Assembly (NCBI GenBank): GCA_029582155.1
Contig: CM055898.1
Span: 29,086,745 to 29,150,744 of the forward strand
DNA: 64,000 nucleotides
Direction: 5' to 3'
Source: Panopea generosa
Taxonomy: Eukaryota > Mollusca > Bivalvia > Adapedonta > Hiatellidae
In this document: piece by piece, positions 4,103-63,990 of the stretch
Layout: every line of letters starts with the position of its first letter
Position numbering within the stretch: the first letter of the stretch is position 1
Notes under the pieces: model-generated
Database searches by the model: none
Told to the model about the DNA's origin: nothing
What the model saw: the letters and a program-made list of their open reading frames with translations, nothing else
Made by a program: the position numbers and the translations under genes

Positions 4103-4685
4103 AGAAGTGGTCTAGTGGTAGAGTGTCAGCATTGCATGCAGAGGGTCATTGGTTTGAACCCCGTTTTGGTCATACCAAAAACTTGAAAAATAGAAACAGA
4201 AGCTCCTTTGCTTGGCACTCAGCATTTAGAGCATATTTCAAGTTGTTGTAGTTGTTGTTATATGGTGTTTAGCGTCACTTTCAACAATTTTTCAGACATC
4301 GCAACGGTTTCTACTATAGACAGTATTCTTAGCGCTGTCACACTGGAGTATCATGCCGCAGACACATGGTATGATACCCCACACTGACACCGGGCCGACC
4401 AGACCTAGAACTCTCCTCTAAATGCTGAGTGTCAAGCGAGAAAGCTTCTAGTACCATTTTTGAAGTTTTTCACATGACCTGACCGGGGATTGAACCCACA
4501 ACCTTCCGCATGCGAGGCAGACGCTCTACCACTAGACCATACCGCGGTCCTACATATTTCAAGGGCTGACTAGCCCAGTGTCAAAATAACTGGGTGGGGT
4601 ATCATACCATATGTCTGTGGCATATTAATATTCCAGCGTTACAGTGCTTAGAATACTGGCTCAAGTAGATACCATTGCAACATAT
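4103..4685 (+). mobile_element. SINE-B copy 1, split by another SINE-B
   Basis: The tRNA-like head is at 4103-4170 ('GTGGTCTAGTGGTAGAG', then 'GGTTTGAACCCCG'), followed by the body to 4242. The element resumes at 4564 with 'ACTGGGTGGGGTATCATACC' and runs to about 4685. The interruption is a complete opposite-strand SINE-B (4243-4552). This outer copy is therefore older; it is more diverged too. Confidence 0.85.
4243..4552 (-). mobile_element. SINE-B copy 2, nested, full length
   Basis: On the minus strand the head ('ACCGCGGTATGGTCTAGTGG', B box 'GTGGGTTCAATCCCC') is at the right. The core 'GGTATCATACCATGTGTC' and the tail 'AGTGACGCTAAACACCATA' plus a CAA-type repeat are at the left. It is flanked by the 11-bp direct repeat CATATTTCAAG (4232-4242 and 4553-4563), a target-site duplication typical of LINE-mobilised SINEs. 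It lies inside SINE-B copy 1. Confidence 0.92.
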
Positions 4686-20918: not shown

Positions 20919-21178
20919 GAGACCGCGGCGTGGTCTAGTGGTAGAGCCTCCGTCTCGCATGCGGAAGGTCGTGGGTTCAATCCCCGGCCGGGTCATACCA
21001 AAGACTTTAAAAATGGTACTAGAAGCTTCCTCGCTTGACACTCAGCATTTAGAGAAGAGTTCTAGGTCTGGTCGGCCCCGGTGTCAGTATAATGTGACTG
21101 GGTGGGGTATCATACCATGTGTCTGCGGCATGATACTCCAGTTTGACAGCGCTTAGAATACTGTCTCAAGTAGATATA
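20919..21178 (+). mobile_element. SINE-B copy 3, tail missing
   Basis: The head 'GACCGCGGCGTGGTCTAGTG' with A-box-like and B-box-like ('GTGGGTTCAATCCCC') motifs resembles a tRNA. The body has 'AAGACTTTAAAAATGG', 'CTCAGCATTTAGAGAAGAG' and the core 'GTCAGTATAATGTGACTGGG'. The copy stops at 'CTCAAGTAGATA', before the CAA-repeat tail, and a minus-strand SINE-A starts within 10 bp. A 72-codon frame through it (VVGSIPGR...RCQYNVTGWG) is shared with copy 7 and is SINE sequence, not a gene. Confidence 0.92.
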
Positions 21179-22980: not shown

Positions 22981-23314
22981 CAGCAGTTGTCTAGTGAGTC
23001 AGAGCATCTGCCTTGCAAACATAAGGTTGTGGTTATGTCCCTAGCTTACCGAAAACTTGAAAAATGGTACAAAAAGCTTGCCCGATGCTTGGGACTCAGT
23101 ATTTAGATGATAGGTATTGCCAGCCAGGTGGCAGTATAATGTGACTGGGCGGGAGGGCTAACGTGTCTGCAGCATGACACTCCAGTATGACGGAGCTTAG
23201 TTAAGTAGACACCATTGTAATATGATTGAATTTGAATATTTAGCATCATTTTTATACCATGTAACTCTTTTAGTCGTGTGATTGAAAAATGTTGAAAGTG
23301 ATGCTAAGCACCTT
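22981..23314 (+). mobile_element. SINE-B copy 4, highly diverged, with a SINE-A scrap
   Basis: A decayed head ('GTTGTCTAGTGAGTCAGAG'), the core 'GCAGTATAATGTGACTGGGC' and the tail 'ATGTTGAAAGTGATGCTAAG' are present. At 23224-23261 it contains 'TTGAATATTTAGCATCATTT', the 3' end of SINE-A in antisense. This is either an insertion remnant or a chimeric copy. Confidence 0.7.
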
Positions 23315-24424
23315 TAAATACAAAACCATTTTCATATATTAAAGAAGTATGATAATTTAATGGACACGAAAGGTCACAGTCTCTTAGATTTAATCAACAT
23401 ATTAAATGACTTTTTGATATGTTAATAAGGTGCATTAAAAGTTGTTCATTCTGTCAGATGTAATAATGACATGAAACTGAGGACTAGCAACATGTCAACT
23501 TGAGCTTTTTTCAAACCAATGAGTAAAGATGTGGTCATTTATATTTAACAAATTGAGAAATTGAGATTATTTAGTTGAGAAAAATCTCAGTTTGAGATGT
23601 TAAGTGAAACTTGCTCCTGGAGATACACAGAATTGTTGATGCATTGGCAAATCCTTTGTCAATATTTCTATCCCTCCTAATTGATAATAATTTCAATCAT
23701 TATTCCAATGGTCAATCATCATATTAAGTTAATGAGAGGCAAACTGTAATTATAGCGCGTAATGGTTTGTTTCTTTTTTCACACATTGAGCTAAGAACTA
23801 ACTTAACATATCAGGAATGGCCTTTATGACTCTCTTTTTTCCCCAATAATAACTGGACTAGCATGCATTGTTGATATAACATTCAAAAATAAAAGCTGAA
23901 AAATGTAGGTGATGATCAAAGCAGGAAATGCCCAATTATGCCAAAGAACCATATACTGTTGGCATTAACAGTAAAAAAACTTCTAACAAGATAATTTTTT
24001 TATTTTTAAAGAAATTTCTACAAGAGCCAGGATGGGCAGCGATATATTGTTATAATAAGGGAGTCCTCCATTTTTTTTACAATATTGATTAATTTATCGC
24101 CTTGTTGAAATATTTATGTGATGACAAAACAAGGTAAGTAATTTTATAAATAAATCCGATGCCGAGAAGCAAGGCATTATCTCCCTTGGAAAATAATTTA
24201 TATAAAGAGGACACCATAATGATTATCTCCCCTTCTAATCTAATTCACTCTTTGCCAATAGTTCAATTACATGTTATATTTATCTCCTTTCCTGATCTCG
24301 CCCCAGTCAATTAATATGTTCACAGTAAAATGAGTTATATTGTGATAATGATGATGAACAGCAGGGCAACATGGCAAGCTGCATTATATTGGGAGAGATA
24401 AATTACACTGATAGGGAGAGGACA
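23315..24424. other. AT-rich sequence, no gene seen
   Basis: A good donor-like 'CAAGGTAAGTAA' occurs on the plus strand at about 24130, but no open exon with an acceptor precedes it. Otherwise featureless. Confidence 0.4.
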
Positions 24425-46494: not shown

Positions 46495-47022
46495 TTGTTG
46501 TTGTATGGTGATTAGTGTCACTTTCAACAATTTTTCGCTCATATCATGATAGTGTCTCATTGTGATCCAGTTAGCTTAGTCGGTTACACGTGCCTGACTA
46601 TCAATCCAGGGGTCGTGAGTTCAAATCCCCTGCCGGCAACAGTCTCCTTGATGATTGATATACAACATTGTGTCTCATAATCATTCATCTCTTACCACTG
46701 ATTCAAGTGGGAAAGTTATCAGTTACTTGCGGAGATGAGGTGTGCTCAAGTACTGGTTAATCCCAGGAAACAGTGATTAGGTTAACTGACCATCTGTTAG
46801 CCCTCGGTGGCATAAAAATGACGCTAAATATTCAATCAATCAATCAATCTAATTGAGACCGTATTCGAAGCGTAACTGCCACACTGCTGAGATTAAAATT
46901 TTCGCTAAATGCTGAGGAAGCTTCTAGTAACACTTTTCAAATCTTTGGTATGACCAAGCAGGGCATCAAACCCATGACCTTCTGCATGCAAGGTGGATGC
47001 TCTACCACTACGACCACCACTG
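46495..47022 (-). mobile_element. SINE-B copy 5, split by SINE-A copy 8
   Basis: The tail half is at 46495-46561 ('TATGGTGATTAGTGTCACTT', 'CAACAATTTTTCGCTCATAT'). The body and tRNA-like head are at 46851-47022 ('AATGCTGAGGAAGCTTCTAG', 'GCATCAAACCCATGACC', 'GATGCTCTACCACTACGACC'). A complete SINE-A sits between them, so this copy is older. Confidence 0.85.
46562..46850 (+). mobile_element. SINE-A copy 8, full length and well preserved
   Basis: The head has 'TTAGCTTAGTCGGTTACACG' and B box 'GTGAGTTCAAATCCCC', followed by the body and the tail 'GACGCTAAATATTC' plus (AATC)n. It is the best copy for defining the family consensus: tRNA-like head about 70 bp, whole element about 290 bp. It is inserted in SINE-B copy 5; the flanking ATTG repeat is too short to be a firm target duplication. 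Confidence 0.95.
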
Positions 47023-47152
47023 GGTTTTCTTTTTGATGAGACTATTACTGAGAAACACTGGTTCAAAAAGAGACTTCTATTTCTCATAAATTAAACCATT
47101 TAACAATTTTTCTTATTCCAACATTTCAAAAAAAAAGAAGACCATTTAACAT

Positions 47153-51020: not shown

Positions 51021-53741
51021 ACTGTCCACAATGGTATATTTCTCACACTTGTCCACAATGGCATATTTCTCACACTTGTCCACAATTGTACATTCAAATT
51101 CTCACACTTGTCCATAATGGTACATTTCTCACTCTTGTCAACAATGGTAAATTCAAATTCTCACACTTGTCCACAATGGTACATTTTTCACACTTGTCCA
51201 CAATGATATATTTCCCACACTTTTCAATATGGTATATTTCTAACACTTGTTCAAAATGGTACATTTCTCACACTTGTCCACAATGACATATTTCTCACAC
51301 TTGTCCACAATGACATATTTCTCACACTTGTCCACAATGGTATATTTCTCACACTTGTCCACAAGGACATATCTCTCACACTTGTCTACAATCTCACATT
51401 TATCACACTTGTCCTCAATGCTACATTTCTCACACTTGTCCTCAGTGCTACATTTCTCATACTTGTCCACAATGGTACATTACTCACACTTTCCAATATG
51501 GTACATTTCTCACACTTGTCCACAATGCTACATTTCTCACACTTGTCCACAATAATATATTTCTCACACTTGTCCAAAACCACATTTCTCACACTTGATC
51601 ACAACAATACATTTCTCACACTTGATCACAATAGTACATTTCTCACATTTGACCACAATGGAACATCTCTCACATTTGATCACAATACTACATTTCTGAC
51701 ACTTGTCTACAATGGTACATTTCTCACACTTGATCACAATAATACATTTCTCACACTTGTCTACAATGGTACATCTCTCACACTTGTCCACAATGATATT
51801 TTCTCACACTTGTCCACAATGGTACACTTCTCACACTTGTCCACAATGATATATTTCTCACACTTTTCAATATGGTATATTTCTAATGCTTGTCAACAAT
51901 GGTACATTTCTCACATTTGTCCACAATGATATATTTCTCACACTTGTCCAAAATGCTACATTTCTCACACTTGATCACAAAAATACATTTCTCACACTTG
52001 TCTACAATGGTACATCTCTCACATTTGTCCACAATGCTACATTTCTCATACCTGTCAACAAAGATATATTTCTCACACTTGTCCGTTATGATATATTCTC
52101 AAACTTGTCAACAATGGTATATTTCTCACACTTGTCCACAATGCTACATTTCTCACACTTGTCCACAATGATATATTTCTCACACTTGTCCACAATGATA
52201 TATTTCTCACACTTGCCAATAATGGTACATTTCTCACACTTGTCCATAATGGTTCATATCTCACACTTGTCCACAACGGTACATTTCTCACACTTGCTCA
52301 CAATGGTACATCTCTCACATTTGTCCACAATGCTACATTTTTCACACTTGCCCACAATGACATATTTCTCACACTTGTCCACAATGGTACATTTCTCACA
52401 CTTGTCCACAATGGTATATTTCTCACACTTGTCCACAAGGACATATCTCTCACACTTGTCTACAATCTCACATTTATCACACTTGTCCTCAATGCTACAT
52501 TTCTCACACTTGTCCTCAGTGCTACATTTCTCATACTTGTCCACAATGGTACATTACTCACACTTTCCAATATGGTACATTTCTCACACTTGTCCACAAT
52601 GCTACATTTCTCACACTTGTCCACAATAATATATTTCTCACACTTGTCCAAAATGCTACATTTCTCACACTTGATCACAACAATACATTTCTCACACTTG
52701 ATCACAATAGTACATTTCTCACATTTGTCCACAATGGAACATCTCTCACATTTGATCACAATACTACATTTCTGACACTTGTCTACAATGGTACATTTCT
52801 CACACTTGATCACAATAATACATTTCTCACACTTGTCTACAATGGTACATCTCTCACACTTGTCCACAATGATATTTTCTCACACTTGTCCACAATGGTA
52901 CACTTCTCACACTTGTCCACAATGATATATTTCTCACACTTTTCAATATGGTATATTTCTAATGCTTGTCAACAATGGTACATTTCTCGCATTTGTCCAC
53001 AATGATATATTTCTCACACTTGACCACAATGCTACATTTCTCACACTTGTCCAAAATGCTACATTTCTCACACTTGATCACAAAAATACATTTCTCACAC
53101 TTGTCTACAATGGTACATTTCTGACACTTTACCACAATGGTACATCTCTCACATTTGTCCACAATGCTATATTTCTCATACTTGTCAACAATGATATATT
53201 TCTCACACTTGTCCGTTATGATATATTCTCAAACTTGTCAACAATGGTATATTTCTCACACTTGTCCACAATGCTACATTTCTCACACTTGTCCACAATG
53301 ATATATTTCTCACACTTGTCCACAATGCTATATTTCTCACACTTGCCAATAATGGTACATTTCTCACACTTGTCCATAATGGTTCATATCTCACACTTGT
53401 CCACAACGGTACATTTCTCACACTTGCCCACAATGGTACATCTCTCACATTTGTCCACAATGCTACATTTTTCACACTTGTCCACAATGACATATTTCTC
53501 ACACTTGTCCTTTATGATATATTTTTCAAACGTGTCAACAATGCTATATTTCTCACTCATTGTGGACAAGAGTGAGAAATATATCATTGTTGACAAGTGT
53601 GAGAAATATATCATTGTTGGCAAGTGTGAGAAATGTACCATTATGGACAAGTGTGAGAAATGTACCATATTTAAAATGTGAGAAAATATCATTGTGGACA
53701 AGTGTAAGAAATGTAGCATTGTGGACAAGAGTGAGAATTAT
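51021..53741. repeat. 27-bp minisatellite, about 100 copies, with terminal inversion
   Basis: The plus-strand unit is 'CACTTGTCCACAATGGTACA' plus TTTCTCA. Because 27 bp is nine codons, long frames stay open on both strands (MVHFSHLST one way, DKCEKCTIV the other); the CxxC spacing in the latter comes from the unit. A block of about 1075 bp is repeated; the marker 'TTCCAATATG' is at 51491 and 52565. At 53545-53583 the orientation flips, and the last 180 bp consists of the reverse-complement unit. Confidence 0.96.
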
Positions 53742-54351: not shown

Positions 54352-54812
54352 TGTTTTTTTAATGAGGTGTAATGCTATTTTCCACACATTTTGGGTTATA
54401 TATGGCATGTCCAGTTTTATTGGTGGATAAATCTGAGTAGAACCACCATCCTTCCACAAGTAACTGAGACCGCAGCGTGGTCTAGTGGTAGAGCGCCCGC
54501 CTCGCATGTGGAAGGTCATGGGTTTGATCCCCGGCCGGGTCATACCAAAGACTTTAAAAATGGTACTAAAAGCTTCCTTGCATGGGGCTCAGCATTTAGA
54601 GAACAGTTCTAGGTCTGGTCGGCCCCGTGTCAGTATAATGTGACTGGGTGGGGTATCATACCACGTGTCTGCAGCATGATACTCCAGTGTGACAGCGCTC
54701 AGAATACTGTCTCAAGTAGACACCATCGCGATATGACTGAAAAAATGTTGAAAGCGACGCTAAACACCATACAACAACAACAACACAAGTAACTGGCAAA
54801 CTTTATCACATA
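54352..54812 (-). mobile_element. SINE-C copy, split by SINE-B copy 6
   Basis: The left part, 54352-54466 ('TATATATGGCATGTCCAGTT', 'GTAGAACCACCATCC'), continues at 54784-54812 ('AAGTAACTGGCAAACTT') after the SINE-B. Rejoining the two sides at the duplicated CACAAGTAACTG restores the family order seen at 33635. Confidence 0.8.
54467..54783 (+). mobile_element. SINE-B copy 6, full length with target duplication
   Basis: Head 'GACCGCAGCGTGGTCTAGTG' with B box 'GGGTTTGATCCCC', core 'GTCAGTATAATGTGACTGGG', 3' part 'TGTTGAAAGCGACGCTAAAC' and (CAA)n tail. It is flanked by the 12-bp direct repeat CACAAGTAACTG (54455-54466 and 54784-54795). It is the best copy for the family consensus (317 bp). Confidence 0.96.
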
Positions 54813-55524: not shown

Positions 55525-55935
55525 CCAGGTAAGAACAGAATCACTGTCAATAGCTCTGCTGTGGGGTAGGAATCATCCGAATGGGTGTCATTCATTTTAA
55601 TTTTTTTTTGTCATGTTCACTATAATTGTGGTTAAATTACCAACCACTGTGTAGTTCCAGGGAGCCATATAAGTGATGTTTAAAGAATAGGATCACTGTA
55701 GCTCATACATGTGGTAAGAAGCAACAAATTGAGCAATACAATAAAATTTGCTGAAACTCTGCAGTTCTGCAGGTATCAAGGTTCTAGGTTAATTCTGCAT
55801 GTTTGTTTATTGATGCGATTTTTTAAAGCTGTATGTTATTGTTTTGTTTTTGTATGTGCAGAGGGAACCAGGAATCTTCCTTCCTGCCTACACTGTGTTG
55901 GTCCGCTGTAAAACCACATTCACTGCATTCCATTC
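55525..55935 (+). mobile_element. dispersed element F, copy 2
   Basis: Aligns over its length with the complement of 6266-6680, including 'AGTTCCAGGGAGCCATA', 'GTAAGAAGCAACAAATTGAG', 'GTATCAAGGTTCTAGGTT' and the 3' end 'TGTTGGTCCGCTGTAAAACC'. Overlapping short frames here are not genes. Confidence 0.75.
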
Positions 55936-56221
55936 TAATTACAGAGTCCCCCAAAAGAGAGGGTACATATGAACCTAGAACAGATGCATGGGAAATGAAT
56001 GCATTACTGAGAAAAATGACATTCATTGGATGCATAGGAAATAAGGTAAAGATGCAGAAACTTAAAATGAAAGCATGGGAGCCTTTGAAGGAACAGAAGC
56101 ATTAAAAAGTGTATCTAATGAATTGAAAATGGGTGCATGTTAACCCTGGAACAAATATTTAGGAAACTGGGAATTGATGCCTGTAACCAAGTTATGCATG
56201 AGAATCCAATTCCCACAACAT
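55936..56221. other. short unique spacer
   Basis: No feature recognised. Diverged repeat text similar to the satellite begins near 56150. Confidence 0.35.
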
Positions 56222-57905
56222 GAGGATAGTTCAAGCACTGGCCAGCACATCGTCAGTATAGTGTGACTTGTTGGAGTATTATACCATGCAACAAGGATAG
56301 TTCAAGCACCAGCCAGCCCATCCTCAGTATAGTGCAACTGGTAAGGGTCATATGTCATGCCAGATGGATAACTGAAGCACCGGCCAGCCCATCGTCTGTA
56401 TACTGCAACTGGTAAGGGTCATATGTCATGCCAGATGGATAACTGAAGCACCGGCCAGCCCATCATCTGTATACTGCAACTGGTAAGGGTCATATGTCAT
56501 GCCAGATGGATAACTGAAGCATCAGCCAGCCCATCATCTGTATACTGCAACTGGTAAGGGTCATATGTCTTGTCAGATGGATAACTGAAGCACCGGCCAG
56601 CCCATCGTCTGTATACTGCAACTGGTAAGGGTCATATGTCTTGTCAGATGGATAACTGAAGCACCAGCCAGCCCATTGTCTGTATACTGCAACTGGTAAG
56701 GGTCATATGTCTTGTCAGATGGATAACTGAAGCACCGGCCAGCCCATCGTCTGTATACTGCAACTGGTAAGGGTCATATGTCATGCCAGATGGATAACTG
56801 AAGCACCGGCCAGCCCATCATCTGTATACTGCAACTGGTAAGGGTCATATGTCATGCCAGATGGATAACTGAAGCACCGGCCAGCCCATCGTCTGTATAC
56901 TGCAACTGGTAAGGGTCATATGTCATGCCAGATGGATAACTGAAGCACTGGCCAGCCCATCATCTGTATACTGTAAATGGTAAGGGTCATATGTCATGTC
57001 AGATGGATAACTGAAGCATCGGCCAGCCCATCGTCTGTATACTGCAACTGGTAAGGGTCATATGTCATGCCAGATGGATAACTGAAGCACCGGCCAGCCC
57101 ATCATCTGTATACTGCAACTGTTAAGGGTCATATGTCATGCCAGATGGATAACTGAAGCACCGGCCAGCCCATCATCTGTATACTGCAACTGGTAAGGAT
57201 CATATGTCATGTCAGACGAATAAGTGCACTGGCCAGCCCATCATCTGTATAGTGCAACTGGTAAGGGTCATATGTCTTGTCAGATGGATAACTGAAGCAC
57301 CGGCCAGCCCATCGTCTGTATACTGCAACTGGTAAGGGTCATATGTCTTGTCAGATGGATAACTGAAGCACCGGCCAGCCCATCGTCTGTATACTGCAAC
57401 TGGTAAGGGTCATATGTCATGCCAGATGGATAACTGAAGCACCGGCCAGCCCATCATCTGTATACTGCAACTGGTAAGGGTCATATGTCTTGTCAGATGG
57501 ATAACTGAAGCACCGGCCAGCCCATCGTCTGTATACTGCAACTGGTAAGGGTCATATGTCATGCCAGATGGATAACTGAAGCACTGGCCAGCCCATCATC
57601 TGTATACTGCAACTGGTAAGGATCATATGTCATGTCAGATGAATAAGTGCACTGGCCAGCCCATCATCTGTATACTGCAACTGGTAAGGGTCATATGTCA
57701 TTCCAGGTGGATAACTGAAGCACTGGCCAGCCCATCATCTGTATACTGCAACTGGTAGGGGTCATATGTCATGTCAGATGAATAACTGAAGCACTGGCCA
57801 GCCCATCGTCAGTATAGTGCAACTGGTAGGGGTAATATGTCATGCCAGATGGATAAGTGAAGCACGGCCAATGGCCAGCCCATCATCAGTATAGTGCGAT
57901 TGGTC
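56222..57905. repeat. 71-bp satellite related to the SINE-B core, about 24 copies
   Basis: 'GATGGATAACTGAAGCACCG' recurs every 71 bp (56363, 56434 and so on), followed by 'GCCAGCCCATCATCTGTATA' and 'CTGGTAAGGGTCATATGTC'. The first, most diverged unit (56232 onward) reads 'GTCAGTATAGTGTGACTTG' then 'TTGGAGTATTATACCATG'. It aligns base for base with the SINE-B core 'GTCAGTATAATGTGACTGGG' then 'TGGGGTATCATACCA'. The array therefore appears to have been amplified from a SINE-B internal segment. Confidence 0.93.
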
Positions 57906-58252
57906 TAGGTATTACATTGTGTGATGAGACCAAGTTCAGTCAGGGTATTACATTGTGTGATGAGACTAAAGTTCAGTCAGGGTATTACATTGTGTGATGA
58001 GACTAAGTTCAAACACTGGCCAGTCCATAGTCAGTATAGTGTGACTGGTCTTGATATTACATTGTGTGATGAGACTAAGTTCAGTCAGGGTATTACATTG
58101 TGTGATGAGACTAAGTTCAGTCAGGGTATTACATTGTGTGATGAGACTAAGTTCAGTCAGGGTATTACATTGTGTGATGAGACTAAGTTCAAACACTGGC
58201 CAGTCCATAGTCAGTATAATTTGACTGGTCGGGATATTATACCTTATCATGA
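57906..58252. repeat. 36-bp satellite continuing from the 71-bp array
   Basis: 'GTGTGATGAGACTAAGTTCA' plus 'GTCAGGGTATTACATT' repeats every 36 bp, interspersed with longer units that still carry 'GCCAGTCCATAGTCAGTATA'. It is thus a shortened derivative of the neighbouring array. The period is a multiple of three, so both strands stay open for about 130 codons. Confidence 0.92.
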
Positions 58253-58790
58253 GGATAGTTCAAACACTAGCCAGTCCATCATCACAATGGTGATATATGA
58301 CTTAAATGATTGTTGACAAAGGCCATATAATTATGTAAAAAAACATTCAATAAGACCTCTACAGATGTTAGTTATAATGGACGTACATGAGCAAAGTAAA
58401 TTAAAACCAAATGCCTGGCAACTTAATGTGTTATCCAACCTCTCAGAAAAAACAGGAAATTAAAACTAGTTTCCTGGGTAAAAACAGATAACCGTATAAC
58501 CATGCCAAGGGTAAAGTGCAGTCTAATTAAGTACATGTGTGAAACCTAATAACAGTCGTATGGTAATTTATTAATGGGGTTCAATGCCATTTTCCAATAA
58601 AAAAGTTGATTATATAGGGTAAATAAAAAGTATTTGTTTACCTTTGCCTTTATAACATTTTGTGGTTTACGTGTACCAAGATATTTTAAAGAATATATGG
58701 CTGCAACTGTTAAAACTCAGGTCCATTGTGCACGAAAACCAAAACATCTGCATTCAGCACTATTTCAAGTCACATCTGTGTATTGTTCTT
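58253..58790. other. AT-rich sequence with a SINE-C end fragment
   Basis: 58565-58612 ('TTATTAATGGGGTTCAATGC') matches the SINE-C 3' end in antisense. Otherwise featureless. Confidence 0.45.
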
Positions 58791-59007
58791 GCCTCCATGG
58801 CTGACAGTGGTCTAAGGTGCCATCTCAAGATCACTTACCTCTCACCACTAAGGTCATAGGTTCGAATTCCGCTCGCTCCAAAAAACTTTAAGTAAGAAAG
58901 TTTCCAGTTACTTGCGGAAGGACAGTGGTTCTACTGTCTGACTCATTCCGACTCAGTCTGACTCAGTCCTCCACAAGTTAAATTGGCTATGTCACAATAT
59001 AACCTGA
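58791..59007 (+). mobile_element. SINE-C copy with leucine/serine-type tRNA-like head
   Basis: The head 'CAGTGGTCTAAGGTGCCATC' with an extra arm and B box 'AGGTTCGAATTCC' resembles a long-variable-arm (type II) tRNA. It is followed by 'GTTTCCAGTTACTTGCGGAA' and 'GGTTCTACTGTCTGACTC'. It is truncated near 59007, where a SINE-D-type element begins. Confidence 0.75.
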
Positions 59008-59180
59008 AAAAGTATAATGGATAAGAGTGTCGGCTGCTCACATCAGTTTTTGTGTTCGATCCCCAGCTAGACCCGATGCCTCTCATAATAAAACAACACT
59101 CAGTTCTACCCAAGAAGCGAACTCGAGAACCATCCATATAAGCTTTGAGCTTTCATTGCATTTGAGCTAAAATAAATTAG
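59008..59180 (+). mobile_element. SINE-D-type element (subfamily 2), copy 1
   Basis: Head fragment 'GGATAAGAGTGTCGGCTGC' with B box 'TGTTCGATCCCC', body 'TTCTACCCAAGAAGCGAACT', tail 'TCATTGCATTTGAGCTAAAA'. It matches 63679-63834. Confidence 0.65.
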
Positions 59181-60191: not shown

Positions 60192-60402
60192 TTTGATTTT
60201 ACTTTGTTAAACAAGTTATTTTAACTTATACAAATTCATGCTCAAAGTCTTCCTGGGAAGAACCAGCACTAAGCTCAGCAAATAAAAGGAAAACAGTGCC
60301 TTGCTTATACACATCAAACAATGTCATAGTCGTGGTAGAGGATTAAACCCACAACCCTCCAATCCTGGGTTCAATGCTCTACCACTGGACCATGCGCTCC
60401 AC
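60192..60402 (-). mobile_element. SINE-D copy 4
   Basis: Tail 'TTTTACTTTGTTAAACAAG' at the left, body 'CTTCCTGGGAAGAACCAGCA', head at the right with 'GATTAAACCCACAACCCTCC' and 'GCTCTACCACTGGACCATGC'. It is the best-preserved head of the family. Confidence 0.8.
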
Positions 60403-61100: not shown

Positions 61101-61419
61101 GTTGTTGTTGATGTATGGTGTTAAGTGTCACTTTCAACAATTTTTCAGTCATATCGCGATGTTGTCTACTTGAGACAGTATTCTGAGCGCTGTCACACTG
61201 GAGTATCATGCCGCAGACACATGGTATGATACCCCACCCAGTCACATTATACTGACACCGGGCCCGACCAGACCTAGAACTCTCCTCTAAATGCTGAGCG
61301 TCAAGCGAGGAAGCTTCTAGTACCATTTTTAAAGTCTTTGGTAGGACCCGGCCTGGTATCGAACCTATGACCTTCCGCATGCGAGGCGGACGCTCTACCA
61401 CTAGACCACTTCGCGGTCT
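61101..61419 (-). mobile_element. SINE-B copy 7, full length with target duplication
   Basis: The left end is the CAA-type tail; the right end is the head ('GAACCTATGACCTTCCGCAT', 'CGCTCTACCACTAGACCACT'). It is flanked by the 12-bp direct repeat TAATAAATTGTA (61089-61100 and 61420-61431). The 149-codon minus frame across it is SINE sequence. Confidence 0.95.
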
Positions 61420-63474: not shown

Positions 63475-63990
63475 CAAATAATTAAATGAAAAGGGATTTC
63501 ATATAACTTCGCCTATGTGCCCAAGTTGGACTAAAATAGATTTCCCACTTAAAATTGCAACATATTTTGCGACCTACCAAATGAAACACAAGATTTCATT
63601 ATCATTTTGATTTGATCCATAACGTTATCATGGTTTAAATATTGTAAGATTTGTTTCATCTTAAAAAGAGTCCAAATGTTGGCCGCTCATGCCAGAGGTT
63701 GCAGGTTTGATCCCCTGCTCGGCCCAATGCCTCTAATAACACAACACTGCAGTACTGGTTCTACTCAGGAAGGGGACTCGAAAGCAGTTCATATAAGCTC
63801 GACCTTTCATCACAATCACACTAAAATAAAATAGAGTCAGAATGATGAGGTGAAGGTCAGCAAGCATTGCTTAAGAACTGTCTATTTTTAGAACGGGGAT
63901 TTTGTTTTAATCTTAACACTCCTATTTAAATAGAATTATTTGTCAGGTTTTGGTGGATCTGATATATACCAAATCATCCGCATTTATTCA
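63475..63990 (-). repeat. dispersed element H, copy 4, split by a SINE
   Basis: The minus-strand H sequence runs from about 63475 to 63678 ('TAGATTTCCCACTTAAAATT', 'CATCTTAAAAAGAGTCCAAA') and resumes at about 63835 ('GATGAGGTGAAGGTCAGCAA', 'ACTGTCTATTTTTAGAAC'). Confidence 0.75.
63679..63834 (+). mobile_element. SINE-D-type element (subfamily 2), copy 2
   Basis: Head fragment 'GTTGGCCGCTCATGCCAGAG' with B box 'AGGTTTGATCCCC', body 'GTTCTACTCAGGAAGGGGAC', tail 'CACAATCACACTAAAATAAA'. It is flanked by similar 12-bp repeats, AGAGTCCAAATG and AGAGTCAGAATG, and interrupts H copy 4. Confidence 0.75.

Follow-up and report, generated by a model that had tools for sequence, protein, structure and literature searches.

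The tandem array described here, which lies in a 64,000-nucleotide stretch of Panopea generosa DNA (hereafter the window; C5:29086745-29150744 of a 1.474-Gb, 39-contig assembly), is very probably an old tandem repeat that arose from the central body of a SINE (roughly positions 133 to 205 in an element we call SINE-B), as judged by sequence comparison. The same SINE segment gave rise to other arrays in the genome, and several of them are still continuous with the head or tail of the SINE. Descent of the window array from the SINE core through tandem amplification is well supported, because gap-free homology, a rooted tree of the units and sister arrays running into SINE head or tail all point to it.

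SINE-B is represented in the window by the three copies listed in Table 1, of which the reference is 319 bp long. The body of the element appears to resemble molluscan SINEs. Its tRNA-like head was recognized by ARAGORN, whose sole call in the window is the tRNA-Ala at 20923-20994, and additional copies or pieces lie at 4247-4549, 4104-4685, 22985-23319 and 46495-47023. A search of the whole window against Rfam gave no match at gathering score. The stretch at 4104-4685 is an old SINE-B copy interrupted by the reverse SINE-B copy 4247-4549, a SINE nested in a SINE, and the inserted copy is bordered by a target-site duplication, the 11-bp repeat CATATTTCAAG at 4232-4242 and 4552-4562. Weak matches to the SINE head only were seen at 58807-58891 (E 0.02, profile of the window copies) and at 60331-60395 and 63672-63724 (E 0.001 and 0.01, respectively, 16-sequence profile); these are perhaps other tRNA-headed repeats. 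Near the last of them, 63705-63834 also matches 59054-59180. Elsewhere in the window, 51023-53741 is occupied by a 27-bp array of ~94 copies and, after it from 53557 on, by seven copies that carry the reverse-complement unit.

The array comprises 31 units at 56222-58252, as delimited in the window by Tandem Repeats Finder and a unit list. There are 24 units of the 71-bp type, among them two of 68 bp and one of 77 bp, followed by five units of 36/37 bp and two of 72 bp. Units 2 and 23 are intermediate in character, and unit 24, the 77-bp unit that closes the 71-bp array, is of mixed 71/72 type. At 2 kb the array is of minisatellite size and in length falls short of the long heterochromatic arrays of classical satellites.

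Table 1 Features of the SINE-B copies and of the tandem array in the window
Feature	Position	Strand	Evidence or remark
Full SINE-B copy, reference	54467..54785	+	Pairwise alignment, profile
Full SINE-B copy	61101..61419	-	Pairwise alignment, profile
SINE-B copy with tRNA-like head	20920..21174	+	ARAGORN tRNA-Ala at 20923-20994
First array unit	56222..56294	+	Equals SINE-B from ~133 on; most SINE-like unit
71-bp array, units 2-24	56295..57927	+	Tandem Repeats Finder, unit list, tree
Two short units, 36 and 37 bp	57928..58000	+	Unit list; comparison with 72-bp unit
72-bp unit with SINE core word retained	58001..58072	+	Unit list, profile, tree
Three 36-bp units	58073..58180	+	Tandem Repeats Finder, unit list
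72-bp unit, last full one; second in likeness to the SINE	58181..58252	+	Score 43; profile E 6e-7
Partial terminal unit	58253..58292 (end ~58292)	+	Unit list, window comparison

We compared the array units with SINE-B by pairwise alignment and by profiles. Positions 133-197 of SINE-B and 56222-56286 of the window form a gap-free alignment of 65 bp, in which 49 bases are identical (E 2e-7 in the window). A preliminary description of this DNA had proposed that the first unit corresponds to an internal segment of SINE-B, quoting two short words; both were found in the order it gave, the alignment spans nearly the whole unit, and the SINE copies at 20920, 54467 and 61101 (antisense) were verified. 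The likeness also withstood comparison with shuffled sequence at both edges of the array. For the first unit, with a score of 54, the best of 2000 dinucleotide-preserving shuffles scored 34, and for the last full unit, with a score of 43, the best of 2000 scored 27, so that no shuffle reached the real score in either case. Consistent with this, a profile built from eight SINE pieces, all of them from the window, recognized the first unit with an E value of 2e-9 and the last full unit with 6e-7. Short A+T-rich words do recur in the window and might produce some resemblance between array and SINE by chance; given the shuffling results for these two units and the further arrays elsewhere in the genome, chance similarity can be ruled out for practical purposes.

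With a second profile of 16 sequences, which includes loci fetched for their likeness to unit 1, all 26 full-length units matched the SINE in one register, with E values from 7e-13 to 0.3. Taken singly, the middle units are only marginally SINE-like, and their pairwise scores do not exceed those of their own reverse complements. Their SINE descent rests on their kinship with the edge units.

To place the units relative to the SINE, we used a maximum-likelihood tree in which the 26 full units were joined by 10 SINE segments and the SINE served as root; six of the 10 SINE rows end after GGGGTA, and the outgroup there covers ~55 columns. Unit 1 was the closest to the SINE, at a distance of 0.27, the next unit standing at 0.45, and so stood nearest the root. 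The 71-bp units form a clade with a support of 100, of which units 23 and 2 are the lowest branches. Units 24, 27 and 31 group apart from it in the 72-bp branch, a clade whose support is likewise 100. The array shows an edge-to-centre gradient. Such a gradient is expected where an array undergoes unequal exchange and conversion in its middle, because the edges retain the old letters, and we infer that these processes lie behind it.

The relation between the two branches bears on the origin of the short units. Removal of a single internal block of exactly 36 bases from the 72-bp unit at 58001 leaves the 36-bp unit, save for 3 mismatches; the same fit to the 72-bp unit at 58181 left 8 mismatches, compared with at least 15 in 2000 letter-shuffled 72-mers. 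The 72-bp units, which read GTCAGTATAGTGTGACTGG (58001) and GTCAGTATAATTTGACTGG (58181), retain SINE letters that are absent from the 71-bp type, which reads GTCTGTATACTGCAACTGG. Because of this deletion fit and the SINE letters kept, the 72-bp branch fits as the source of the 36-bp units, and the homogenised 71-bp type does not. The preliminary description had drawn a single line from SINE core to 71-bp array to 36-bp array. Its first step, from SINE to array, stands, whereas derivation of the 36-bp units from the 71-bp type gives way before the separate, fully supported 72-bp clade. The sequences fit an order in which the SINE core would have given two branches, the 71-bp one and the 72-bp one with its 36-bp units. 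Likewise, the words CAGTATA and ACTGGTC that had been ascribed to the second array are present in its two 72-bp units (58001 and 58181) and absent from its five 36/37-bp units.

We next consider relatives of the first unit in the genome. The query was the first 379 bp of the array, and the best candidates only were scored. Among these, unit 1 matched dispersed places at 79-84% over ~64-72 bp, and the remainder of the query, including the homogenised unit, matched this locus alone. The top dispersed match of the best candidates, an aberrant SINE at C5:53516887 (L011), is 84% identical to unit 1 over 72 bp and thereby closer to it than the SINE copies of the window are. Such a match is what one would expect if the source of the array was not SINE-B itself but a different SINE family or repeat whose central segment is the same; a family of 50-bp arrays (L052 and, by their letters, two listed C2 places) that is SINE-like over ~28 bp only would suit this as well. 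However, the dispersed matches that were examined, seven of seven (L011-L017), each align with SINE-B well past the limits of the unit, and a shared source of this kind seems unlikely to us. If SINE-B itself was the source, the copy that gave the array was probably a variant with GAGGATAGTTC and ACTTGTTGG.

Further arrays were sought through the exact core word of SINE-B, which occurs 18,024 times in the 1.47 Gb (9,139 + 8,885), compared with 17 + 16 occurrences of the reversed control. Pairs of core words 47-77 bp apart number 2,405 (1,360 + 1,045), against 2 + 0 for the reversed pattern. The first 100 of the 2,405 pair places fall into 16 clusters, spread over C1 and reaching 42 Mb into C2, and 11 of these clusters hold at least 3 places. 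SINE-B arrays are thus present at several loci; seven of the 16 clusters were examined. The clusters are not all separate births, because some look by their letters like copies of each other (C1:86914004/87552007 and C1:99477975/99588085, from the printed letters). Arrays are caught by the pair pattern only where the core word is retained, and most of the window array therefore escapes it. In twenty 10-kb stretches we obtained 10 SINE-profile hits and no tandem pair, so arrays are uncommon per base.

Six of the seven examined arrays on C1 and C2 consist of SINE-B sequence with different borders, their periods being 70 bp (L048), 60 bp (L049 and L051), 62 bp (L038), 65 bp (L047, SINE-like over ~45 of its 65 bp) and 56 bp (L050). 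All six run into SINE sequence past the unit, L049 and L050 on both sides and the others on at least one. In L048 the tail side of the 70-bp array directly adjoins a stretch of N (L048:1-315). The SINE, 319 bp long, is followed to an outer end by L047, L048 and L050 and nearly so by L049 (313), and the reach towards a SINE end is partial in L038 (278), in L051 (23, at the edge of the stretch) and in L009 (10 and 280). Together with the window array (71 bp) and an array on C19 (L009, 103 bp), there are seven SINE-B unit types, in arrays of about 10 to 92 units. The 50-bp array L052 (C1:13957200-13958700), SINE-like over ~28 bp, was left out of this count. A repeat of ~50 bp with the core word and little other SINE sequence was seen there and, from the listed letters, at C2:9781533 and C2:37323471; this repeat could be either a SINE array of great age or a family of its own. 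At C1:7472037-7472837, core words recur in 112-bp steps (one of 224), which is another array type outside the 47-77-bp spacing range. The search for further arrays that the preliminary description had suggested therefore returned several from the same SINE segment and not just one, with the window's own homogenised unit failing to appear elsewhere among the best candidates.

The array on C19 (L009:406-9883), found through the genome search with the 379-bp query, is 9.5 kb long and holds 92 copies of its 103-bp unit with 95% matches, and its consensus is 92% identical to SINE-B. It is flanked on one side by SINE positions 10-124 (head) and on the other by 230-280 (tail side). A 14-bp direct repeat, the longest word common to the two flanks (180 bp of one and 130 bp of the other), lies beside the head and again ~74 bp past the recognisable tail, and may be a target-site repeat. 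The plain reading is that this array grew within an inserted SINE copy. With a SINE head on one side and SINE tail sequence on the other, it shows that growth of such arrays within a SINE can occur. The C19 array is also the cleanest case for tracking array growth.

Homology alone has no direction, and SINE-B could conversely have taken its core from a pre-existing satellite unit. Against this, SINE sequence is what the seven unit types of differing borders have in common, several of the arrays run into SINE head or tail, and in the window array likeness to the SINE is greatest in the first and in the last full unit. We consider this reverse direction very improbable and retain the direction from SINE to array.

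We then inspected the flanks of the window array. The 16-sequence SINE profile detected no SINE head or tail in them, and the array lacks an extended terminal unit that reaches a SINE end. A candidate SINE head to its left was rejected, as 1744 of 2000 shuffles scored as high. To its right, 58295..58316 (+) bears a 22-bp likeness to SINE tail positions 266-286. Its score of 27 was reached by 5 of 2000 shuffles and is slightly exceeded (28) at two other places in the window that are non-SINE by eye, and the 16-sequence profile finds nothing at 58295-58316. A SINE tail there is possible but unproven, and we keep it outside the supporting evidence. Either the window array is older and the SINE that housed it has decayed, or the array has moved.

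The missing SINE ends would also be compatible with an array brought in by a DNA transposon (Helitron- or MITE-like), which would merely resemble in-place expansion, and Helitrons are proposed as spreaders of an oyster satellite (PMC11121367). Against such carriage speak the flanks 55931-56221 and 58293-58566, neither of which has another copy better than E 0.1 within the window, and it strikes us as distinctly unlikely. On the preferred reading, expansion in place from the SINE-B core, the window array, too, would have begun inside an inserted SINE.

As to how this expansion may have proceeded, an initial tandem duplication would have arisen through slippage or unequal exchange. The middle of the array would then have grown and homogenised, with the edge units escaping and remaining SINE-like. 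On the 72-bp side branch, one unit would have lost exactly 36 bp and been amplified. At the borders of five arrays we found short internal direct repeats of 7, 7, 3, 1 and 5 bases, the mean of 4.6 exceeding a null mean of 3.2 (P ~0.02), with two of the five at or below the null mean. These are suggestive only, and they fit the model of Haber and Louis, which invokes slippage or unequal exchange (described in PMC6947457). A fragile hairpin in the core was rejected as a cause of duplication. Its 13-pair stem is unremarkable in energy (z -0.35), with 68 of 200 shuffles folding as well, and for a dimer of the 71-bp unit 200 of 200 shuffles fold at least as well. The whole SINE folds better than its shuffles (z -2.92, 0 of 100), which may be owed to the tRNA head and is uninformative on the core.

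A further idea, which we put forward tentatively and regard as rather less probable than its negation, is that tandem duplication has a sequence-specific hot spot in the central segment of SINE-B, with perhaps hundreds of insertions among the 18,024 core words having turned independently into arrays of differing borders and the flanking segments far less often. A head-side SINE word gave zero pairs at 47-77 bp, its abundance being known from a 264-kb sample alone, and this absence points towards a hot spot in the core. In that sample, made up of the SINE-rich window and twenty 10-kb stretches, exact head-side, core and tail words occurred 3, 6 and 2 times, respectively; two of the six core words are units of the window array, and the sample is too thin for rates.

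The route from SINE to satellite is already known from reptiles and a limpet, and a review lists SINEs among satellite sources (PMC12692304). In a survey of 56 squamate genomes, SINE-derived satellites (sSats) were described, including a 67-bp snake unit, and in the reptile loci treated there a longer terminal unit extends to a SINE end at most loci, not all (PMC10702118). The window array shares the defining feature of an sSat, a unit homologous to part of a SINE. Like the squamate sSats in that account, the units here are cut from part of a tRNA SINE and their borders vary; unlike them, they belong to another animal and another SINE family, and the window array is without recognisable SINE ends (PMC10702118). 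By comparison with squamate sSats, moreover, the arrays examined here all contain the core segment, the C1/C2 pair loci having been selected by the core word. Among gastropods, PcH-sat of the limpet Patella caerulea, from Nin-SINE, is likewise a satellite in which one segment shows homology to a tRNA SINE, but it is described as having a 179-bp unit, making up ~10% of the limpet genome, being pericentromeric and corresponding mostly to the 3' part of Nin-SINE (PMC11121367). Human tandem repeats derived from transposable elements, including Alu, have been catalogued (PMC3389668), and minisatellites derived from Alu and B1 also begin inside SINEs, on a model of slippage or unequal exchange between short repeats (PMC3389668, PMC6947457). 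The human Alu-derived repeats in that catalogue average 2.3 to 2.4 units (PMC3389668), against about 10 to 92 here.

What gives the present finding its worth is how many unit types a single short SINE segment has produced, at least seven among the arrays of this one genome, and that their stages can be seen side by side. The origins of satellites are usually inferred from finished, homogenised arrays. Because some of the arrays in P. generosa are still joined to their parent SINE, the first duplication, the borders and the later homogenisation could be compared between loci and between individuals or related species. If the hot-spot idea were true, SINE-B would be a genome-wide nursery of satellites, with stages ranging from arrays of ~10 units still housed in a SINE to an old one that, like that of the window, lacks SINE ends.
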